In this document: positions 1 through 19,517 of the stretch, piece by piece
How positions within the stretch are numbered: the first letter of the stretch is position 1
How the letters are laid out: each line of letters begins with the position of its first letter
Assembly (NCBI GenBank): GCA_018831195.1
Contig: JAHJDP010000038.1
Location: 1-44,545 of the forward strand
DNA length: 44,545 bases
Direction of reading: 5' to 3'
DNA from: Candidatus Eisenbacteria bacterium
GTDB taxonomy: Bacteria > Eisenbacteria > RBG-16-71-46 > CAIMUX01 > JAHJDP01
Program-made: the position numbers and the translations under genes
The notes under the pieces: generated by a model
Seen by the model: the letters and a program-made list of their open reading frames with translations, nothing else
Told to the model about the DNA's origin: nothing
Database searches by the model: none

Positions 1-150
1 AGATTCTTCTGGTTTAATGAAGTCACTCGAAATGCCCTCCTTGGCGGTTTGTTTGTTTCTTGTACAACCAATTTATCGCCTCTGGACGGGCATTTCGAGC
101 TCTTTCTCTTACAAAACCTCCTAAATCGCGCTTATATTGGGCCTAGATAG
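1..150 (+). CDS. Open frame entering from the left edge (3' end of a possible gene)
   Basis: Frame 1 is open from the first base to a TAG at 148-150, giving about 49 residues (begins RFFWFNEVTRNALLGG, ends LLNRAYIGPR). It overlaps the start of the next gene by 14 bases, as in the tight overlaps elsewhere in the window. It may be the tail of an upstream partner of the KaiC-like cluster. It could also be the true N-terminal part of the next gene, separated from it by a +1 shift near 136-142. The composition is as A+T-rich as the genes that follow. I do not recognise the family, and a chance open frame of this length is possible. Confidence 0.25.
   Translation, partial: RFFWFNEVTRNALLGGLFVSCTTNLSPLDGHFELFLLQNLLNRAYIGPR
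26..99. repeat. 12-bp perfect inverted repeat, 50-base spacing
   Basis: CTCGAAATGCCC at 26-37 is the exact reverse complement of GGGCATTTCGAG at 88-99. The flanking bases no longer pair, so the arms end sharply. The repeat lies just upstream of the 324-residue gene, or inside the open frame that runs in from the left. It could be a long-looped hairpin, an operator pair, or chance. Confidence 0.5.
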
Positions 151-1111
151 CGTAATCAAACATCTCGCCCTTGGGGATTCAATCAAACAAAGCCTCCGCA
201 GGTGGCAGAGCTACTTCGCTCGCGCCCGTGAGTCGCTCAAAAAGATCATCGACCTATATCGCAGCAAAGAGAATATCGATTCACGCTTGGAAGGATATGA
301 GTTACTCGATGTCAATAATAATATTCACATCGATCCCATGCTTGCCGAGGCACTCCTTCAATACGGCGATAAAACAGATATTACTATATCAAGGCTTCAT
401 CGACCTGGACAGAATACCAACAATTCCCCACTCCATACTTTCCTAGAGGCCATTTCTCATGATGAGAAGGAAGGCTATCTATGCGTAGATATCGCCCGCA
501 GCATCCTCTCGCCATTCGCAAGATATCGGGCATCTAGGTTCTTGCCTGTTGATTCAATTCGCATCAATCCAGCGGCAGTCCGGATACATTCGGGAGAAAA
601 GCCAAATGCCAAGAATGAAATAGTGCCGGCAGGTCTTGATATCGTTATAACATATTGGTGGATCGAGAGTTGGGCCGATGAACTCTTCCGCCTCATTCGC
701 TATCACAACGAAAAGGATTTTTATGATTTGGGATTTCTTGATGTCATTCGTTTTAACATTCCATTGTTTTTCTCAAAACTAAATACGCCCATCAAGCGAA
801 ATAAAGATCCAATCCCAGTTATCCGTTTCTTCTACAAGAAACATACTATAAAAAACAATGAAACCAATAACTTAGATAATATTGAAGCAATTGATTTCGT
901 GATCGGCAAATTGAAAAGTGCATCTTCCCGTTTTCCATTCACATCGGAAAATATCAAAGCACTCCGCTCATGCTCTCCTTCTTCTATACACCAGAAGAAA
1001 CTTGATCGGCCCCCGCAACCAGAATGCGCATTCTATGAAACCGCTGATGGGCTAATCCCAGGCAGTTTTGAGATCCTGGCGATCCTTAATACCTTTCTTG
1101 ACCTGGAGTAA
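137..1111 (+). CDS. Unrecognised 324-aa protein, upstream partner of the KaiC-like ATPase
   Basis: A soluble, charged protein with no signal peptide or membrane segment that I can see. The N-terminal 60 residues are basic and helix-prone. The middle has FLPVDSIRINPAAVRIHSG followed by IVITYWWIESWADELFRL. The end reads DGLIPGSFEILAILNTFLDLE. I recognise no family. The start is uncertain: TTG at 137 is the first possible start after an in-frame TAA at 122-124, and no good Shine-Dalgarno sequence precedes it. The gene may instead continue from the open frame at 1-150 through a shift. It ends six bases before the ATG of the large KaiC-like gene, so the two are almost certainly co-transcribed and probably work together. 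Codons are A+T-rich like those of its neighbour. Confidence 0.6.
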   Translation: MGLDSVIKHLALGDSIKQSLRRWQSYFARARESLKKIIDLYRSKENIDSRLEGYELLDVNNNIHIDPMLAEALLQYGDKTDITISRLHRPGQNTNNSPLHTFLEAISHDEKEGYLCVDIARSILSPFARYRASRFLPVDSIRINPAAVRIHSGEKPNAKNEIVPAGLDIVITYWWIESWADELFRLIRYHNEKDFYDLGFLDVIRFNIPLFFSKLNTPIKRNKDPIPVIRFFYKKHTIKNNETNNLDNIEAIDFVIGKLKSASSRFPFTSENIKALRSCSPSSIHQKKLDRPPQPECAFYETADGLIPGSFEILAILNTFLDLE

Positions 1112-1117
1112 AACGCT

Positions 1118-4100
1118 ATGTATTCGAACATGGAGCTGGCGCATTTAACAGGCATACCATTGGGCAGAGTTTCTGGATTATGTAATTTGCTTGTGAATAA
1201 GGGGATTTTGATCTTTGATGAAGCATCTGTTCAATATTCACTCTCCCCGGATCCCAAAACTCGTCAAATTCTTGAAATTTTGCGGGAACAGCTTCAGGAC
1301 CCAGCGCAATCCATCGAAATACGATCCAAAATCGAGGATATTCTAGCGCTTGGTAAACCACTGGCTCTATCTCGCCTAATTCATGAAGATACATTTCGTG
1401 ACATTGGTGTCCCGGGTTTGAATAAAATTCTTGGTCGCGATGACCCACAGATGATTTTTAATAAGGATTTCTCATTAATAGCGGAGGATGGTCTTCCTCG
1501 AGGACATTGCTATCTTGTTAAGGGGGCTCCAGGAACTGGAAAAACAACATTGGGTATTCAAATTGCACTCCGCCATGCAAATCGACGAGCCAGATTTCTG
1601 ACATTTGAAGAGGATGTAACTCAGCTCCTGCACGATATGAAACCCTATATCGCTTCCAATGAAGACGTGAAGTCAGAAAAGGTGCCGATCGGGTGGAATC
1701 GACATGATCTTAAGAATATTATACGTCCACTTCGGAAAATTCGGGCTCCTCTTGTGTGGAAGGATCCAGAAGCCGTCATTGATGAGCTCACGGCACTACT
1801 CGACCGCGAATTGCCCAAGTTAATAATTGTCGACTCCATCAGCCGCTTTCGGGATCTTGCAGACAAGGAACGTGCGCGCCATGTTCTTCGTAGATTTATT
1901 CGTATTCTAAAAGCACGGCGTATTACAGCTATATTTTTAGGTGAAGACAGGGGCGAGGAAAATGCTTTTGAGGATTATGAGGTTGATGGGATTCTCGAAC
2001 TTGAATGGATTGGAGATATTATCTATTTAACTGTCGCCAAACTTAGGGGTCAAAGATCTTTTAGGGGTCCCCATTCAGCAAAACTAATCAGTGCTGAAGA
2101 AATCAAGATGCAACCGCCTTTCCTCATATCTCGAGGCAATCATAATAATCATGGCCCCCACCTGACAGTTGGCTTCAATGTCTTCCCCGATATCTCGGTA
2201 TATACAGAGCAGTTGAATAATGAGGAGGAAAAAGAAGTCCCCCTAAAGACCATAGATACCGACTGTAATGGCAATCAAAAGAGAAATATACTAGAAATGG
2301 TCGTTATTAGTAGCGGCACAGAGGGCCTTGATAAACTTCTACCGGTACGTGTCCCCAAAGGAGGGCCAGATAGTTCCAGGGACAAGAAATCAAATACGCG
2401 TCAGGCAAAGGCCACATTAAACCACCCGGAAAATAATAGCCCTGATATTGGAAAGAGTTTCGGTTTCAAGCGTGGTGAAATCGTCTTGCTTGTGGGAAGT
2501 GCCGGCTCGGGTAAAACCCTTCTCGGCCTCAACTTCCTCATTTCCAGACCCGACACGAAGAATATCGTGAACAAGATCAATGAAGGAAAGGGGGATATTA
2601 ATCACAAATCCATCTGGCTCAATCTTGAAGGCAATATTGATACACTTCGATTCGCTGTGGCTGGTTTCGAAGGTCAAATTGGAGAAACTCTAAACAACGC
2701 ACTCCATGGTGCAACAAATAGTGGCTCACTAGGGCCTTGTATAATTAGACACTATACTCCACTAAATCTGGATCTAAACCGTCTCATTTATGAACTAGAA
2801 ATACTCACAAACCAAGATGATTACAAAATCGATCGTTTGGTTATTGACTCTGTAACTGAGCTTGAACGAAGTTCTGCCAAAGGCCAACCTGACATTAAAA
2901 CCTTTCTATCCGGCTTGATTGCCTATCTTCGGGTCAAGAATATTACTACAGTCTTCATCAGCCGTTCCGACACATTTTTCCGATCTATAGACAAAATTGA
3001 AGAGCAGGTTTCTTCCTTGGTTGATCTGATTCTCTGTATCCGCAATTTTGATATCCATAATGAAATCCATAGAGGGATTTATGTGCAAAAAGCCAGAGGA
3101 CGGGTACACACATCCAAGATTATGCGAATGACAATTGATGCACGGAGCGGAATTTCAATTGATGATAGCGGATGGGATCACGAGAATCTCCTTGCCGGAG
3201 ATACACGTTCCATACAACGACCGGAAATATTCTTCAAACTATTCTATGAGAACAAAGCGGAAGAGAATGTTAATTCAGCGATTATTAAGGATTTTAGATA
3301 TAATCGATATCCGGGAGGAGAACCCAAATTCACGCTTGTTCGAAAGCCAAGTATCTATACAGAATTCTGGTCCTTTCGCGGGCAATACAGCGCCGGGCAT
3401 GCAAATACCAGGGTCCTTAGTATTGCAGATTATGTTCTGTCAGCCTTTCGAGACGCCGACCGGCTGGATGGTTTGAAGAACTATGTTAAGGGCGATTTGA
3501 TCTATCGCATCAAAGGCCAGGATCACTTAAGGCGCCTCTACCTCCCTCCTACAGGCCAAGAAGCACCTCAGAAAGTATCCACTTCCAACACACATAATCC
3601 TGACGAATCACTCTTGATTGATGCGATCCCCTGTTATCGTGACTGTGGTTTCATGGCATATAAGAACCCAACATTTTCGGACAATAATCATAATTGCTCG
3701 ACTAATATCAGAGATTCCATTCAAGAGCTAATCACATTACAGAGTAATATGGATGAAGTTTGCACAGAAATACACGCCCAAAAGAAAGCATCCTGGTACA
3801 ATACTTCTTATAGTCCCGCAACACTAAAATATTACACCTGGCCGAAACTCCTTAAATGGATTAAAAGCTTTAATAGGTGTTTAAAGGAGATCGAAGGCGA
3901 ACATGACGAATCAGACAAGACTATTGCCTTCGCTTTCCCACCCCTGGACCATCACTCTGAATTTGTGGCCTTTTTCATGGAACTATTATGGAGTTTTGGC
4001 GGCGACATCTTTGAAATCCAGATCAACAACGTTTTCCATAAAACCAATTTCCGAGAGAAATTTCGCAACAAAATCAGAGATACTATAATCATCGACCTTA

Positions 4101-5554
4101 TTGATTACTACGCAAATAAATGCGAAGCAGCATTTAAAAGACCAGATTGCAATGCTAATGGTAGTGACAATAATAGATGGAAAAGCCAGTTATTAGAGAC
4201 TTTTACGAAGATTCTACAAAATGAAGGAGACGATTCGAAATGCAACAATATGGATGTTTTAAACGATTTGAAGTCCAAATTTAAAGAATACGGATTTCTT
4301 GACCGGGGAATTGAATTTAAGGATGTGTGTCACTGGATCGCGACCTTCGTAGAAAGCATACGAGACAAGGAAGAGGAGGATGGCGTTCTAGATTGGGAAA
4401 AACTCGCGAACGCCCGTGTTCTAAAGCTTAATGATCCGCCCTTTGTTGAATCTCTCACCTTGATCCTCCAACTGATTGTCGATGCCGGAGTAAAAAATCC
4501 CTGCGGTGGGGATTTCCGCGACAGGGCGGTCCTAGCTCGCTACTGGTACAGCCTTCTGCCCAAAAGGGGGGTGCGCAGAGGACTTCGTCAACGAGATAAA
4601 AACTACCACATATTGCCCCTGCCATTAGCTCCTATCGATATGAGTCCAACAGTCAAGGAAATTGGAACAATTTACAGAAGTGTAACCTGTGTAACATACT
4701 GGTTCCTTGCTATGTTAAAGGGTGCTTTATCTCCTGAAATAGGTGGCAATTTCATCGAATCAATGAGTTCACCGGATTATTACAACCATCGTCTTAGAGA
4801 AAACACAGGAATCCCCATTCTCGACTGGGAACTAGAAAAGGAGGAGTATGTACGCCTTGATCCTGAAGCATACAATGTAACAAGAGGGATCATAGACACC
4901 GGAATGAGATACGAGGCAACGCTTGAGAATATTTCAAAACACATATTTATGCTGATGAACAAGAGAGATGCACAATCTTCTCCGGAAAATTCTCCTGTTG
5001 AAAACCCCATGCAAAATTCGGAGCAAAGTGACAATGATGAATCGAAATCTTACATGCATAAAGTCCTCGATAATGACCCTGCTTGTTTACCTCGCGAATT
5101 ACGGGAAGCTTTCAGCAACAAGTCGGAGAAGAAACACAAAAAGAGTACGACGAATATCTTAAATTCTCGCAAATACTTCGCCAAGGCTCGGCAGACCAGA
5201 ATAGCGTTTTATCAAATCGAGCAGGCTCTTCATCACGAGTTGCGCCAATTCTTAGATACAAGCAATCTCGAATCGATAAAAGCCAAGAATGAAAATGCCA
5301 TCGAAAAGGAAAGTCCTCATAAAAGCAAATTGGAAGAGAAAAAGAGGGCGTTTGAAGGTTGCATAAGCAATCAGAAAAAGGACAATTCAGAGGGAAGGGA
5401 TTCAGGCGAAGTCGCAAGACATTGGATATTGGATGGTATCGTAAAGGAAACCAGTGACAACTTCCGATTGCATATTATTTTTGAGCTGATTATTTACTTC
5501 TACCGCTGGGACCGAGATAAAAGTATAACATCCCCATATATCGGGGGAGATTAA
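1118..5554 (+). CDS. Double KaiC-like ATPase fused to a solute-binding-protein-like domain
   Basis: 1478 residues, no signal peptide, so cytoplasmic. Order: winged-helix-like segment (about 5-40); KaiC/RecA domain 1 (about 92-360) with Walker A GAPGTGKTT at 136-144, the acidic pair in FLTFEED (E164, E165), Walker B LIIVDS at 235-240 and a K-x-R-G motif at 308-311; KaiC domain 2 (about 395-690) with Walker A GSAGSGKT at 460-467, LVIDS at 574-578 and K-x-R-G at 658-661. In domain 2 the acidic pair is reduced to L-E-G (503-505). From about 745 to 1270 the sequence follows the pattern of ABC-transporter solute-binding proteins: IDAIPCYRDCGFMAYKNPTF near 834, YTWPKLLKWIK near 906, a FAFP...ELLWSFGGDIFE stretch at 938-966, LPLPLAPID near 1166 and NTGIPILDWEL near 1229. 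The last 190 residues are a polar, charged tail. The KaiC call is firm; the solute-binding call is from motifs and order only. The substrate and role are unknown. Confidence 0.8.
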   Translation: MYSNMELAHLTGIPLGRVSGLCNLLVNKGILIFDEASVQYSLSPDPKTRQILEILREQLQDPAQSIEIRSKIEDILALGKPLALSRLIHEDTFRDIGVPGLNKILGRDDPQMIFNKDFSLIAEDGLPRGHCYLVKGAPGTGKTTLGIQIALRHANRRARFLTFEEDVTQLLHDMKPYIASNEDVKSEKVPIGWNRHDLKNIIRPLRKIRAPLVWKDPEAVIDELTALLDRELPKLIIVDSISRFRDLADKERARHVLRRFIRILKARRITAIFLGEDRGEENAFEDYEVDGILELEWIGDIIYLTVAKLRGQRSFRGPHSAKLISAEEIKMQPPFLISRGNHNNHGPHLTVGFNVFPDISVYTEQLNNEEEKEVPLKTIDTDCNGNQKRNILEMVVISSGTEGLDKLLPVRVPKGGPDSSRDKKSNTRQAKATLNHPENNSPDIGKSFGFKRGEIVLLVGSAGSGKTLLGLNFLISRPDTKNIVNKINEGKGDINHKSIWLNLEGNIDTLRFAVAGFEGQIGETLNNALHGATNSGSLGPCIIRHYTPLNLDLNRLIYELEILTNQDDYKIDRLVIDSVTELERSSAKGQPDIKTFLSGLIAYLRVKNITTVFISRSDTFFRSIDKIEEQVSSLVDLILCIRNFDIHNEIHRGIYVQKARGRVHTSKIMRMTIDARSGISIDDSGWDHENLLAGDTRSIQRPEIFFKLFYENKAEENVNSAIIKDFRYNRYPGGEPKFTLVRKPSIYTEFWSFRGQYSAGHANTRVLSIADYVLSAFRDADRLDGLKNYVKGDLIYRIKGQDHLRRLYLPPTGQEAPQKVSTSNTHNPDESLLIDAIPCYRDCGFMAYKNPTFSDNNHNCSTNIRDSIQELITLQSNMDEVCTEIHAQKKASWYNTSYSPATLKYYTWPKLLKWIKSFNRCLKEIEGEHDESDKTIAFAFPPLDHHSEFVAFFMELLWSFGGDIFEIQINNVFHKTNFREKFRNKIRDTIIIDLIDYYANKCEAAFKRPDCNANGSDNNRWKSQLLETFTKILQNEGDDSKCNNMDVLNDLKSKFKEYGFLDRGIEFKDVCHWIATFVESIRDKEEEDGVLDWEKLANARVLKLNDPPFVESLTLILQLIVDAGVKNPCGGDFRDRAVLARYWYSLLPKRGVRRGLRQRDKNYHILPLPLAPIDMSPTVKEIGTIYRSVTCVTYWFLAMLKGALSPEIGGNFIESMSSPDYYNHRLRENTGIPILDWELEKEEYVRLDPEAYNVTRGIIDTGMRYEATLENISKHIFMLMNKRDAQSSPENSPVENPMQNSEQSDNDESKSYMHKVLDNDPACLPRELREAFSNKSEKKHKKSTTNILNSRKYFAKARQTRIAFYQIEQALHHELRQFLDTSNLESIKAKNENAIEKESPHKSKLEEKKRAFEGCISNQKKDNSEGRDSGEVARHWILDGIVKETSDNFRLHIIFELIIYFYRWDRDKSITSPYIGGD

Positions 5555-5959
5555 TTGAAGGCAGGTAGTGATTATCCAATGGATATAGTACCTTTTACTA
5601 TTTTTACTTTTAGCAGCACCATTGTCGCTTTTGGAAATGGGGGAGAATCCATCCATCTTGAAGAAGGGACAGAGATGGATTTCTATTGCTGTGACATCTA
5701 CGGAAACGAGGGTGGAGACTGGGTCGAATTGATTCTGGATTCCTATCTTCTCAACGGCAATATCTCTTACGATCCATTATTCTGCCATCCGGAGAGCGGC
5801 AATTTCACGCTTCAAGATTGCTCGCCCTGCCTACCGAATGCATTCCCAGAATCCGGTTGTTATGGATTTATAGGAGCTTGCCCCGAGACCGGGTGCAGCT
5901 GCTATGTTCCTGTGGCGCCGACAAGCTGGGGCCGAATCAAGTTGATGTACCAAGATTGA
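5555..5959 (+). pseudogene. 3' fragment of an exported right-handed beta-helix protein
   Basis: The reading frame holds only the C-terminal end of a larger secreted protein: YCCDIYGNEGGDWVE, then GNISYDPLFCHPESGNFTL, then CSPCLPN, ending in SWGRIKLMYQD. This series is typical of the last coils of beta-helix (choice-of-anchor Q-like) proteins in FCB-group genomes, which normally carry a signal peptide and several hundred residues of helix before it. Here there is no signal peptide and only about 30 residues before the motif. An ATG at 5581 is the only sensible start and has no clear ribosome-binding site. The frame begins directly after the stop of the KaiC-like gene, which suggests that this gene's 5' part was lost when the A+T-rich island arrived. 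It is probably not functional. Confidence 0.6.
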
Positions 5960-6059
5960 AATAGGACCCATCATGGAGGGCATAGGCCGCCGCAATTCCT
6001 GATCCGATCGCCATGGCCGATGCCTCAGTATTGGGATACAGTCCCGTCTCCCGCCCTCT
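5937..6059 (-). pseudogene. Possible C-terminal remnant of a flavoprotein (very tentative)
   Basis: On the minus strand, right after the chemoreceptor stop codon, a frame of about 40 codons reads RETGLYPNTEASAMAIGSGI and onward to a TGA at 5937-5939. The G-L-Y-P...A-x-A-x-G-S-G-I-A-A pattern is loosely like the C-terminal FAD-contact segment of FAD-dependent dehydrogenases. There is no start codon or ribosome-binding site for it. It overlaps the 3' end of the beta-helix remnant. A decayed gene or chance are both possible. Confidence 0.15.
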
Positions 6060-16710: not shown

Positions 16711-16716
16711 TATAAT
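16711..16716 (+). promoter_or_regulatory. -10 box (TATAAT) upstream of the CotH-like gene
   Basis: A perfect TATAAT lies 78 bases before the ATG. No good -35 hexamer is found 16-18 bases upstream. A second -10-like TGCTATCCT follows at 16719. A short hairpin, AGGGTGG-caa-CCACCCT at 16741-16757, would fall in the leader of the transcript. Confidence 0.45.
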
Positions 16717-16793
16717 TGTGCTATCCTTTCTTTACACCTGAGGGTGGCAACCACCCTTCTGTGGCCGTGCACTTCGCTTACCGGAGACACCCT

Positions 16794-19517
16794 ATGGATA
16801 GGCATAGCCTTCTTCATCCCTTTCCAAGACATCTCCCCCTCTTCCCGCGGGTGCTGGCGCTTGCGGCGCTGATGCTCGGCCTCTTGCATCCCCCCGCCCT
16901 GCAGGCGCTCGAGATGGCCTTGAACTGCGGCGGTAATACTTTTATTTCTGAGACCGGCATCACCTATGTCGCCGATCGCGCCTACACGGTTGAGAACGGA
17001 TTCGGTTATACAAACGGCGGCGCGGCGTCGAATTGGCATCCCATCGGAGGGGCGGACACCGACTCCGCGCATTACTCCACACTGCGATCGAACTTCATCG
17101 AGTATCGATTCGATGTTCCGAACGGCGACTATCTTCTTCGCATCCGCACCGCGGAACATGAAAAACACGGCCCTGGTGAGCGGATCTGGTGGATATGGTC
17201 GGAAGGGCATACGGTCATCGATTCGGTTGATATCTTCGCTGAAGTCGGCCGCGATTTCGCCATCGATTACCAATTCCATATGACGGTCACCGACGGGCAG
17301 CTCAATGTTTATGGGGGCAGCTACGCAGCGGCGGTGATCCTCTCAGGTATCGCCGTCGTCTCGAGGCAACCGGATTCACAGCCGCCGGCGACCCCCGGGG
17401 ATTTTCAGATTCTCGATAGTTACCGCGAGATTAATCTCAATTGGGATCCACCGGCCGATGATGATTTGGCGGGGTACAGGATCTATCGCGCCACCGCTCC
17501 AGGCGGTCCGTATACACAAATCAAGGAGAGGCTCGATCTCGTCTCGAGATATATCGATCGGGGGTTGGATCCGGCGGAAACCTATTACTATTACATGAAG
17601 GCGGTCGACGTTTACGGCAACGTGGGCGCGCCCACCGCTATCCTGTCGATCTCGCCTCTGGACCCGTTCAATTCCGAGCTTCGAACATATGAGCTGACCG
17701 TCGATCCCGCCGACATTCTTCTCATGAATCTGAATTTCGCCGAGAACTATTACGTTCCCTGCATCCTGGATTGGGACGGGCAGCAATGGACCGATGTCCG
17801 GATCCGCTACAAAGGGAGCTTTGTCCGTTCTCTGTTCAAGAAATCGTATAAGTTGAATTTCACCGATACTAATTTGATGGAGGATCGCGAGCTGGTTCAC
17901 TTAAATTCCGAGGTTGACGATCCCTATCTCACGCGGAATTACATGACCATCCGCGCGCACAAATTGGCGGGATCGGAGGCGGTTGATTCACAGTTTTTCC
18001 TTTGTTTCCTGAACGATCGTTTTCTCGGTCTCTATCATGATCTCGAGCAATACGACGAGCATTACCTTGATAAGCGTCCCTGGCTCGATCGCGGCGCCAA
18101 CCTCTACAAGGCCGAAGACGGCGCCACCTTGGAATATCTTCCCAACATCAATGACTATGAGATCTATTACGACAAAACGACGAATGAAGCGGAATATGAC
18201 TGGACCGATCTTTCCGATTTGACCTTTGCTATCGATACGTCACCGGATGAAGACCTCTTCTCGGAATTGGCGGGGTTGATTGATCTGGAGGCGATGTACA
18301 CTTATTATGCGACCCAATTGATACTCCAAAACCTCAATTTTGAGGATCACAATTATTACCTCTACCATGATCTCGATCTGAATAAGTGGACATTCCTGCC
18401 GTGGGACACAAGTTTTACCTGGGGGAACCTCGGCGGCTTCAGTCTGGCGACGACATATCTGCGGCCGCCCTCTTATGGGACACAGGATAATCGTCTCCTG
18501 GAACGGATTTTTGACAATGATTTCATGCGCAGACGGTATCTGGACCGGGCTCTTTGGCTGATGAATACGGATCTTTCATCCGCCGTCCGGGACAGCCTTA
18601 TACTGGATGCTTACAATCAGATTATCGAGGCCGGGCAGCGGGATTGGAACAAGTGGCTATGGGAAAACAATGATGTCTTCGTAAATCAGTTGACCACCAT
18701 GACGGCATGGTCGGCGAACCGCGAGAATTATCTCCGCTCTCATATTCCAGTTTACCGCCAAGACCCGGAAATTTATGTTAATGAGTTCATGGCGTCGAAC
18801 AATACAACCATCTCGGATGACTTTGGTGAATTTGACGACTGGATCGAAATTTATAATTCGACGCCGGAACCGATATCACTCCAAGGTTACTACCTTACCG
18901 ACGACCTGACCTGGGGCTCGAAATGGGCTTTCCCCAATACGATTCTCGAGCCTTACGGCCGCTTAATCCTCTGGGCCGACGGCCAGCCTCAACAGGGCAG
19001 CCTGCATACCAATTTCCAGCTTTCCACCTGGGGTGAGGAAATCGGCGTCTTTCACTATGATGTGCAAATGGGACTTCAGCCGGTGGACGCGCTCGGTTTC
19101 GGTGAGCAATCCAGCGACATCTCCTATGCGCGCCGATGTGATGGCAGTGTGACTTGGGAATTCCAGGCGGAGCCGACACCCAATGGACCGAATTGCGAAA
19201 TCAGCGACGCCCCTGAGCCCGCCGCAGGAGCCCTCACCGGGGCCTGCCTGGAAATCGGCGGTCTTCACCCCTTCCTCGAACGGGGAATATTCAGCCTGAA
19301 TCTGCCCCGCACGACATCGGCGACCTTGGCGATTCATGACGTCACGGGACGGAGAATTCGGACACTGATCGATGGACCCGTGGCGGAGGGACCACAGAAA
19401 GTCACCTGGGACGGCCGGAATCAGCAAGGGGCCCAGGTCGCTCCAGGACTCTATTGGGCCCTTCTACAGACACCGGATCGGAGGGAGTCGGTGAAGTTTA
19501 TCCTTCTGCATCCGTGA
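16794..19517 (+). CDS. Exported CotH-kinase / lamin-tail protein
   Basis: 907 residues, secreted. ATG at 16794 is chosen because it gives a normal signal peptide (basic start, then LALAALMLGLLHPPALQALE) and has GGAG eight bases before it. Layout: malectin-like carbohydrate-binding domain about 40-185; fibronectin type III domain about 190-285; CotH kinase-like domain about 290-650, with IRYKGSFVRSLFKKSYKLNF, FLGLYHDLEQYDEHYL and TFLPWDTSFTWG; lamin-tail domain about 675-790 starting EIYVNEFMASNN; FlgD-like C-terminal domain (VTGRRIRTLIDG ... APGLYWALL), probably a sorting or anchoring domain. CotH proteins are atypical protein kinases, and secreted versions of this architecture are common in FCB-group and planctomycete genomes. 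The substrate is unknown. It appears monocistronic. Confidence 0.9.
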   Translation: MDRHSLLHPFPRHLPLFPRVLALAALMLGLLHPPALQALEMALNCGGNTFISETGITYVADRAYTVENGFGYTNGGAASNWHPIGGADTDSAHYSTLRSNFIEYRFDVPNGDYLLRIRTAEHEKHGPGERIWWIWSEGHTVIDSVDIFAEVGRDFAIDYQFHMTVTDGQLNVYGGSYAAAVILSGIAVVSRQPDSQPPATPGDFQILDSYREINLNWDPPADDDLAGYRIYRATAPGGPYTQIKERLDLVSRYIDRGLDPAETYYYYMKAVDVYGNVGAPTAILSISPLDPFNSELRTYELTVDPADILLMNLNFAENYYVPCILDWDGQQWTDVRIRYKGSFVRSLFKKSYKLNFTDTNLMEDRELVHLNSEVDDPYLTRNYMTIRAHKLAGSEAVDSQFFLCFLNDRFLGLYHDLEQYDEHYLDKRPWLDRGANLYKAEDGATLEYLPNINDYEIYYDKTTNEAEYDWTDLSDLTFAIDTSPDEDLFSELAGLIDLEAMYTYYATQLILQNLNFEDHNYYLYHDLDLNKWTFLPWDTSFTWGNLGGFSLATTYLRPPSYGTQDNRLLERIFDNDFMRRRYLDRALWLMNTDLSSAVRDSLILDAYNQIIEAGQRDWNKWLWENNDVFVNQLTTMTAWSANRENYLRSHIPVYRQDPEIYVNEFMASNNTTISDDFGEFDDWIEIYNSTPEPISLQGYYLTDDLTWGSKWAFPNTILEPYGRLILWADGQPQQGSLHTNFQLSTWGEEIGVFHYDVQMGLQPVDALGFGEQSSDISYARRCDGSVTWEFQAEPTPNGPNCEISDAPEPAAGALTGACLEIGGLHPFLERGIFSLNLPRTTSATLAIHDVTGRRIRTLIDGPVAEGPQKVTWDGRNQQGAQVAPGLYWALLQTPDRRESVKFILLHP

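Follow-up and report, generated by a model that had tools for sequence, protein, structure and literature searches.

A KaiC-like double ATPase ending in a carbohydrate solute-binding-like domain and encoded beside an HD phosphohydrolase gene in "Candidatus Eisenbacteria"

RESULTS

Gene content of the locus and KaiC domains

We studied a locus at the beginning of a contig of a "Candidatus Eisenbacteria" bacterium (JAHJDP010000038.1, here C38). This contig in full (44,545 bases) is "the window" and belongs to a genome of 5.24 Mb, whose phylum is small (47 genomes in the collection searched). The central open reading frame (ORF), at positions 1118 to 5554, is uninterrupted and encodes a protein of 1478 amino acids (aa), in which a likely winged helix is followed by two KaiC domains and by a domain resembling the carbohydrate solute-binding proteins (SBPs) of ATP-binding cassette (ABC) transporters. 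Just upstream lies part of the gene of an HD phosphohydrolase, a partner, co-encoded or fused, that had been missed in the original prediction, made from the letters of this DNA alone. Table 1 gives the position of every feature.

The KaiC-like double ATPase of that prediction was recovered. The Pfam profile PF06745 (KaiC) matched the ORF with an E value of 1.1e-42 in three stretches spanning both ATPase domains (best stretch, residues 97 to 313), and a motif scan found both Walker A/B pairs intact (residues 136/235 and 460/573). Domain 1, which aligned to KaiC CI, has the Walker A motif GAPGTGKT at residue 136, the catalytic EE pair at 164-165, Walker B at 235, and KxRG at 308. In domain 2, the corresponding positions are GSAGSGKT at 460, the conserved glutamate E504, Walker B at 573, and KxRG at 658, and residues 561 to 698 aligned to CII 361 to 496 of cyanobacterial KaiC, matched among PDB sequences. 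In the phmmer alignment, S632-S633 sit on the KaiC autophosphorylation sites S431-T432 ("eeqvSSlvd" over "dshiSTitd"). Ser633 was invariant in the family described below and Ser632 was kept in four of its five members (L028 has the second Ser alone); the position of the dyad is conserved as Ser-Ser, and the two residues are putative phosphosites. Because similarity to CII gave way to the SBP domain after residue 698, the protein, as judged from its sequence, is not a clock KaiC, the C-terminal A-loop/KaiA-binding tail being absent. A winged helix had also been predicted, and an N-terminal one is likely given that its position was conserved in the five-member alignment of homologues; the profile matches themselves were weak and under the cut-off (HTH_IclR, E 0.0036; HTH_24, E 0.017).

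Relatives of the fusion

Homologues that keep the fusion were found in two Aminicenantes genomes. The C-terminal part was scanned once against 85,000 species genomes with exact peptide patterns, an approach by which divergent members are missed, and two Aminicenantes metagenome-assembled genomes (MAGs) were matched; searching these MAGs themselves added two further, divergent paralogues (loci L027 and L028). The family consists of five proteins (window, L016, L015, L027, and L028) from three genomes, of Aminicenantes and of the window's own phylum, and the four relatives all come from MAGs. Its distribution was patchy; a single genome, of 8.2 Mb, contains three paralogues. All five proteins aligned along their length, the identity to the window protein being 44 to 46% for L016, L015, and L027 and 28% for L028, and the four relatives keep the architecture of winged helix-turn-helix (wHTH), KaiC, KaiC, and SBP. 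In L028 (L028:6649-12747), HD-wHTH-KaiC-KaiC-SBP form a single chain of 2032 aa, with longer inserts in the SBP part. No further members were found in the rest of the window's own phylum (47 genomes), 142 genomes of the relatives' class, 396 genomes of the phylum of genome G060 (G060 itself was the sole match), three other small phyla, or the phage, plasmid, and viral-contig collections.

The C-terminal part is homologous to solute-binding proteins

The landmarks of SBPs had been read, in order, at about residues 745 to 1270 of the C-terminal half. All of them are present in the window protein, conserved in the four homologues, and collinear with real SBPs well above the controls below. The identity of the domain therefore stood, while its boundaries had to be widened, since the homology begins at about residue 703 ("FFKLFYEN..AE..", the N-terminal strand and helix of SBPs) and its far end, at residue 1378 or beyond, takes in "RQTRIAFYQIEQ", the counterpart of the "RPxTPxYxxI" segment of SBPs. 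Two helical inserts interrupt it.

We used the five-member family alignment as the query profile for HHalign, against an alignment of ca. 25 genuine SBPs that PF01547 had picked out among the window's relatives. The uncut family profile gave a probability of 85.9 (E 5.2e-6), compared with 0.2% for the reversed profile, 0.2% for the KaiC part, and at most 0.5% for 60 column shuffles. Shuffling blocks of 20 columns, which preserves single landmarks, reached up to 39.5%, with a score of 40 versus 53 for the true order; therefore, the order of the landmarks counts as well as their content. A family insert of ca. 132 residues is located between "FMELLWSFGGDIFE" and "LKLNDPPFVESLTLILQLIVDAG". When it was removed (residues ca. 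970 to 1101), the probability rose to 96.5% (P 8.9e-10, from 5e-6) and the aligned columns went from 184 to 317; with the C-terminus added, the match reached 350 columns and took in the last SBP segment, that is, nearly the whole SBP length. Overall, values with inserts removed were 96.5 to 96.8%, and, block shuffles apart, no control exceeded 0.6%. Along similar lines, a hidden Markov model of the SBPs searched against the 232 ORFs of the loci placed the five family proteins at ranks 1 to 5 (L028, E 9e-7). This ranking, together with the reversed, column-shuffled, and KaiC-part controls, ruled out a chance resemblance of the landmarks. A hit to DUF7809 in the single-sequence scan (E 0.012) was discarded as spurious.

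Searching all PDB sequences with the family profile gave MalE3 (6dtq) as the sole match in one run and as one of two in another, neither significant alone. The best PDB match of L028, the most divergent member, searched alone, was the trehalose/maltose-binding protein 1eu8 (E 0.0047, in two collinear pieces), and L028 alone had a sub-threshold MalE match in the single-sequence Pfam/NCBIfam scan (E 0.0097). Both MalE3 and the trehalose/maltose-binding protein are reported to be structurally close to LpqY (PMC8603345). Altogether, we consider the SBP homology of the C-terminal part established with little room for doubt, the relationship itself being distant.

We also modeled the domain with AlphaFold after adding 22 SBPs to the family alignment (predicted template modeling score, 0.76). 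The best 50 PDB matches of this model in Foldseek were all ABC-transporter SBPs, nearly all of them for carbohydrates, with MalE3 at the top (E 3.6e-6) and the trehalose/maltose-binding protein, LpqY, and SmoF also in the list. Neither outcome named beforehand as contradicting the SBP reading, a predicted structure lacking two alpha/beta lobes or the lack of any SBP family profile match, was observed, the first as far as this SBP-guided model goes. Six residues invariant in the five-member family (E715, Y840, D842, W1143, W1195, and R1358) are presumably equivalent to sugar-contacting positions of alpha-glycoside SBPs, an assignment made by motif alignment. The Foldseek list includes the mutant structures D118A, W287A, R356A, and R49A, which mark residues already probed by crystallographers, and the first three would point to the same candidate pocket sites if our mapping of residues is right. 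W751, invariant in all five proteins, occupies what we take, by the same motif reasoning, to be the R49 position of alpha-glycoside SBPs; therefore, the ligand may be different.

As had been predicted, no signal peptide was found in the 1478-aa protein, whose chain begins with the HTH, and no transporter permease was detected among the window ORFs scanned, the scan having taken in part of them. The protein has no transmembrane segment either (highest 19-residue Kyte-Doolittle mean, 1.36). Because there is neither a hydrophobic N-terminus nor a permease among the scanned ORFs, the two marks of an ABC importer SBP (export signal and cognate permease), the KaiC-SBP protein is not a transporter component.

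The HD phosphohydrolase partner and its state in the window

The HD gene lies 4 to 6 bp upstream of the KaiC-SBP gene in the window and L016 (4 bp in L016) and adjoins it in L027. In L015, no stop codon separates the HD frame from the winged helix, into which it continues. The HD part of L028 matched HD-CE (PF24391) with a score of 31.1, versus a Pfam cut-off of 27, and it matched the Cas3'' HD as well; for the HD protein of L016 (573 aa), the HD-CE (22.7) and HD profiles both stayed under the cut-off. The HD, HH, and GDK..IT residues (H..HD..HH..D motifs) were conserved wherever the corresponding parts are present. The HD proteins had no close relatives in plasmid, phage, or PDB sequences.

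In the window, the ORF at 137-1111 starts inside a repeat and encodes the C-terminal half of the HD protein (41% identity to residues 296 to 570 of the intact L016 protein). The N-terminal half, with the HD motifs, ends another contig of the same genome, C77 (G000:C77:202754-203317; L019:16640-17396), and is interrupted by one in-frame TAA, at a position occupied in L016 by a non-conserved Asp. Elsewhere in the genome, window bases 7 to 146 or parts of them are found four more times, with 88 to 99% identity. A simple end overlap between C77 and C38 was ruled out, C38 starting with the multicopy repeat. The HD gene is thus broken in this genome by the insertion of a repeat and by a stop codon; it is probably dead here, in contrast to the KaiC-SBP gene, which is intact. 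In L068, too, a copy of the repeat borders on a gene that is interrupted, there one for a methyltransferase, as would be expected if the repeat were a mobile-element end.

Genomic setting

The GC content was ca. 43% in the first 6000 bases of the window (1-6000) and ca. 57% in the rest of the contig, and this difference suggests that the HD/KaiC-SBP locus was acquired horizontally. Right behind the KaiC-SBP stop codon is a 134-aa ORF (5555-5959) with no significant family match (best, DUF5123, E 0.22), and farther along the window (16716-19517) is a secreted-type protein combining CotH kinase, malectin, lamin-tail, and FlgD-Ig domains. The L027 copy is adjoined (L027:12093-18887) by genes for a TIR-NB-ARC-TPR protein and an HATPase_c_4-NB-ARC-TPR protein and by an HNH-like ORF. 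The ORF at L016:20242-21021 is transposase-like and opens with a DruA-type domain, its DruA-like part preceding a DDE_Tnp_1-associated segment.

TABLE 1 Features of the HD/KaiC-SBP locus in the window
Feature	Positions	Strand	Evidence
Repeat end (probable mobile-element end) splitting the HD gene	1..146		Bases 7-146 recur elsewhere; HD coding restarts after it
HD-domain protein, C-terminal part with "YGDKTDIT" metal-binding Asp segment	147..1111	+	41% identity to L016 HD protein
Winged-helix-like N-terminal domain, residues 1-63	1118..1306	+	Sub-cut-off HTH_IclR/HTH_24; conserved in homologues
KaiC domain 1 (CI-like), residues 97-349	1406..2164	+	PF06745, motif scan, alignment to KaiC CI
KaiC domain 2 (CII-like), residues 397-698	2306..3211	+	Alignment to KaiC CII, motif scan
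Ser632-Ser633 at the KaiC Ser431-Thr432 position	3011..3016	+	phmmer alignment
Carbohydrate SBP-like (SBP_bac_1/MalE-type) domain, residues 703-1478	3224..5551	+	HHalign, controls, PDB matches, AlphaFold and Foldseek
Family-specific helical insert in the SBP domain, residues ca. 970-1101	4025..4420	+	HHalign gain on removal
Second, poorly conserved insert ahead of the last SBP segment, residues ca. 1279-1346	4952..5155	+	Alignment

DISCUSSION

Each part of this family has known counterparts. With KaiC and KaiC-like signaling ATPases it shares two KaiC domains, intact Walker motifs, the catalytic Glu, KxRG, and a Ser-Ser pair at the phosphosites, but unlike KaiC, it has an N-terminal winged helix, an HD partner, and an SBP replacing the A-loop/KaiA tail. 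The size is also different, since KaiC homologues surveyed previously had 101 to 741 aa, the bacterial ones almost always ca. 500 (PMC5520375), compared with 1478 aa for the window protein and 2032 aa for L028. The SBPs of the MalE3, trehalose/maltose-binding protein, and LpqY type (PF01547 superfamily) share an end-to-end profile match and, in the SBP-guided model, a fold match with the C-terminal domain, which, unlike them, has neither a signal peptide nor transporter genes, is fused to KaiC, and carries ca. 330 residues of inserts and extensions. HD-CE shares the H..HD..HH..D motifs, and the L028 HD part exceeds its Pfam cut-off; in contrast to HD-CE, the HD of this family is joined to KaiC-SBP and has a long C-terminal extension conserved within the family alone. 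SgrR/DsvR offers a precedent for an SBP fold that stays in the cytosol and is coupled to an HTH, the domain there being SBP_bac_5 (PMC13060122); it is, however, of the peptide rather than the carbohydrate type, and there is no KaiC or HD. The original prediction knew of no described system of this kind, and in the literature searched we likewise found no fusion of KaiC with an SBP or HD domain. To our knowledge, no case of a MalE-type carbohydrate-binding fold, which ordinarily lies beyond the inner membrane, serving as an intracellular ATPase sensor has been described, and none was found in the literature. The parts are known, and the combination is unreported.

What is observed is which domains are present, their conserved order (HD-wHTH-KaiC-KaiC-SBP), and the integrity of the ATPase motifs. 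On this basis, we propose a cytosolic sensor-effector system in which a winged helix-KaiC-KaiC-SBP protein works with an HD phosphohydrolase, the two being co-encoded and in some genomes fused, a proposal for which we see an even chance. It has the look of a novel type of intracellular switch set off by a molecule. KaiC takes its input from KaiA through the C-terminal tail of CII and is bound by its outputs at CI. Here, the SBP stands in place of that tail, and HD and the winged helix precede CI, so that the simplest reading would be one in which SBP closure substitutes for KaiA, with the HD enzyme and/or DNA as output. The KaiC domains (with KxRG motifs present) would form a double-ring hexamer, and the SBP domain, attached at the site of the regulatory tail, would bind a small molecule present in the cell, a sugar or glycoside being the likeliest candidate. 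Closure of its clamshell would alter the ATPase or autophosphorylation state in CII, like KaiA pulling on the A-loop, and the change would be relayed across the ring to CI, where it would control the HD enzyme (nucleotide or nucleic acid hydrolysis), DNA binding by the winged helix possibly being controlled too. The "ligand-gated ATPase" of the original prediction would be a fitting description of such a protein. The more specific version, a KaiA-free KaiC switch in which the grafted sugar SBP acts as a built-in, ligand-driven KaiA, sets the phosphorylation of the ring, and toggles the attached HD nucleotide hydrolase, is possible but doubtful.

Several observations weigh against the proposed sensor-effector system. 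The HD gene is broken in the window's genome; were HD the output, the copy found there might be in decay or function without its partner. No sugar pathway was found in the neighborhoods of the loci. The SBP families PF01547 and PF13416, with which a profile match had been anticipated, gave no single-sequence Pfam match in any of the five members, the match being obtained with the family profile. An SBP structure had been anticipated as well, and AlphaFold run with the five family sequences alone was uninformative (predicted local distance difference test score of 37); because the alignment behind the SBP-guided model included SBP sequences, which steered it, that model is supportive but not independent evidence. 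In L028, the CI catalytic glutamates are degenerate (LTFSGD) and Ser632 is lost.

Among the alternatives, we think it unlikely that this is an anti-phage or conflict system, in which the SBP would detect a molecule or protein made during infection, the KaiC ring would amplify the signal, and HD would destroy nucleotides or nucleic acid. The HD-CE and Cas3-like HD matches in L028 speak for it (HD-CE being, as we take it from the name, a conflict-element family), as do the STAND genes next to the L027 copy (TIR-NB-ARC-TPR and NB-ARC-TPR), the AAA-ATPase/PD-(D/E)XK gene that neighbors L028, the patchy distribution with its three paralogues in one genome, and the low GC content of the window copy. 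However, PADLOC returned no full-length match to a defence protein, just partial ones (mad8/IetA for the KaiC part, by generic P-loop similarity, and Cas3 for HD), the other two neighborhoods were housekeeping-like, and the family was absent from the phage, plasmid, and viral collections searched. Considering the L027 neighbors and the HD-CE domain, we keep a defence role open.

A role in the transcriptional control of metabolism, as in SgrR, is improbable in our view; here, the SBP would sense an intracellular sugar or sugar phosphate, KaiC would be a timing or oligomerization module, and the winged helix would be the output. The SgrR/DsvR precedent for joining an HTH to a cytosolic SBP_bac_5 (PMC13060122), the HTH-like N-terminus, and a KaiC-SBP ORF that is intact in the window despite the broken HD gene are in keeping with this, but support for the HTH was weak, no conserved target operon was found nearby, and a pure regulator leaves unexplained the most constant feature, the co-encoding or fusion of HD. 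Quite improbable is a scaffold that recruits partners through an SBP domain that has lost ligand binding. It would account for the large family-specific inserts and for the apparent replacement of the R49 position by the invariant Trp751, yet the family keeps its candidate pocket residues without variation.

Outside clocks, KaiC-like ATPases occur widely, and what they sense and what roles they play are mostly unknown. In the sensor-effector system proposed here, the input (SBP) and the output (HD and winged helix) are attached covalently or operonically, so that ligand, ATPase, and effector would become accessible on one protein, and a MalE-type carbohydrate-binding fold would be seen employed within the cell as the sensor of an ATPase.

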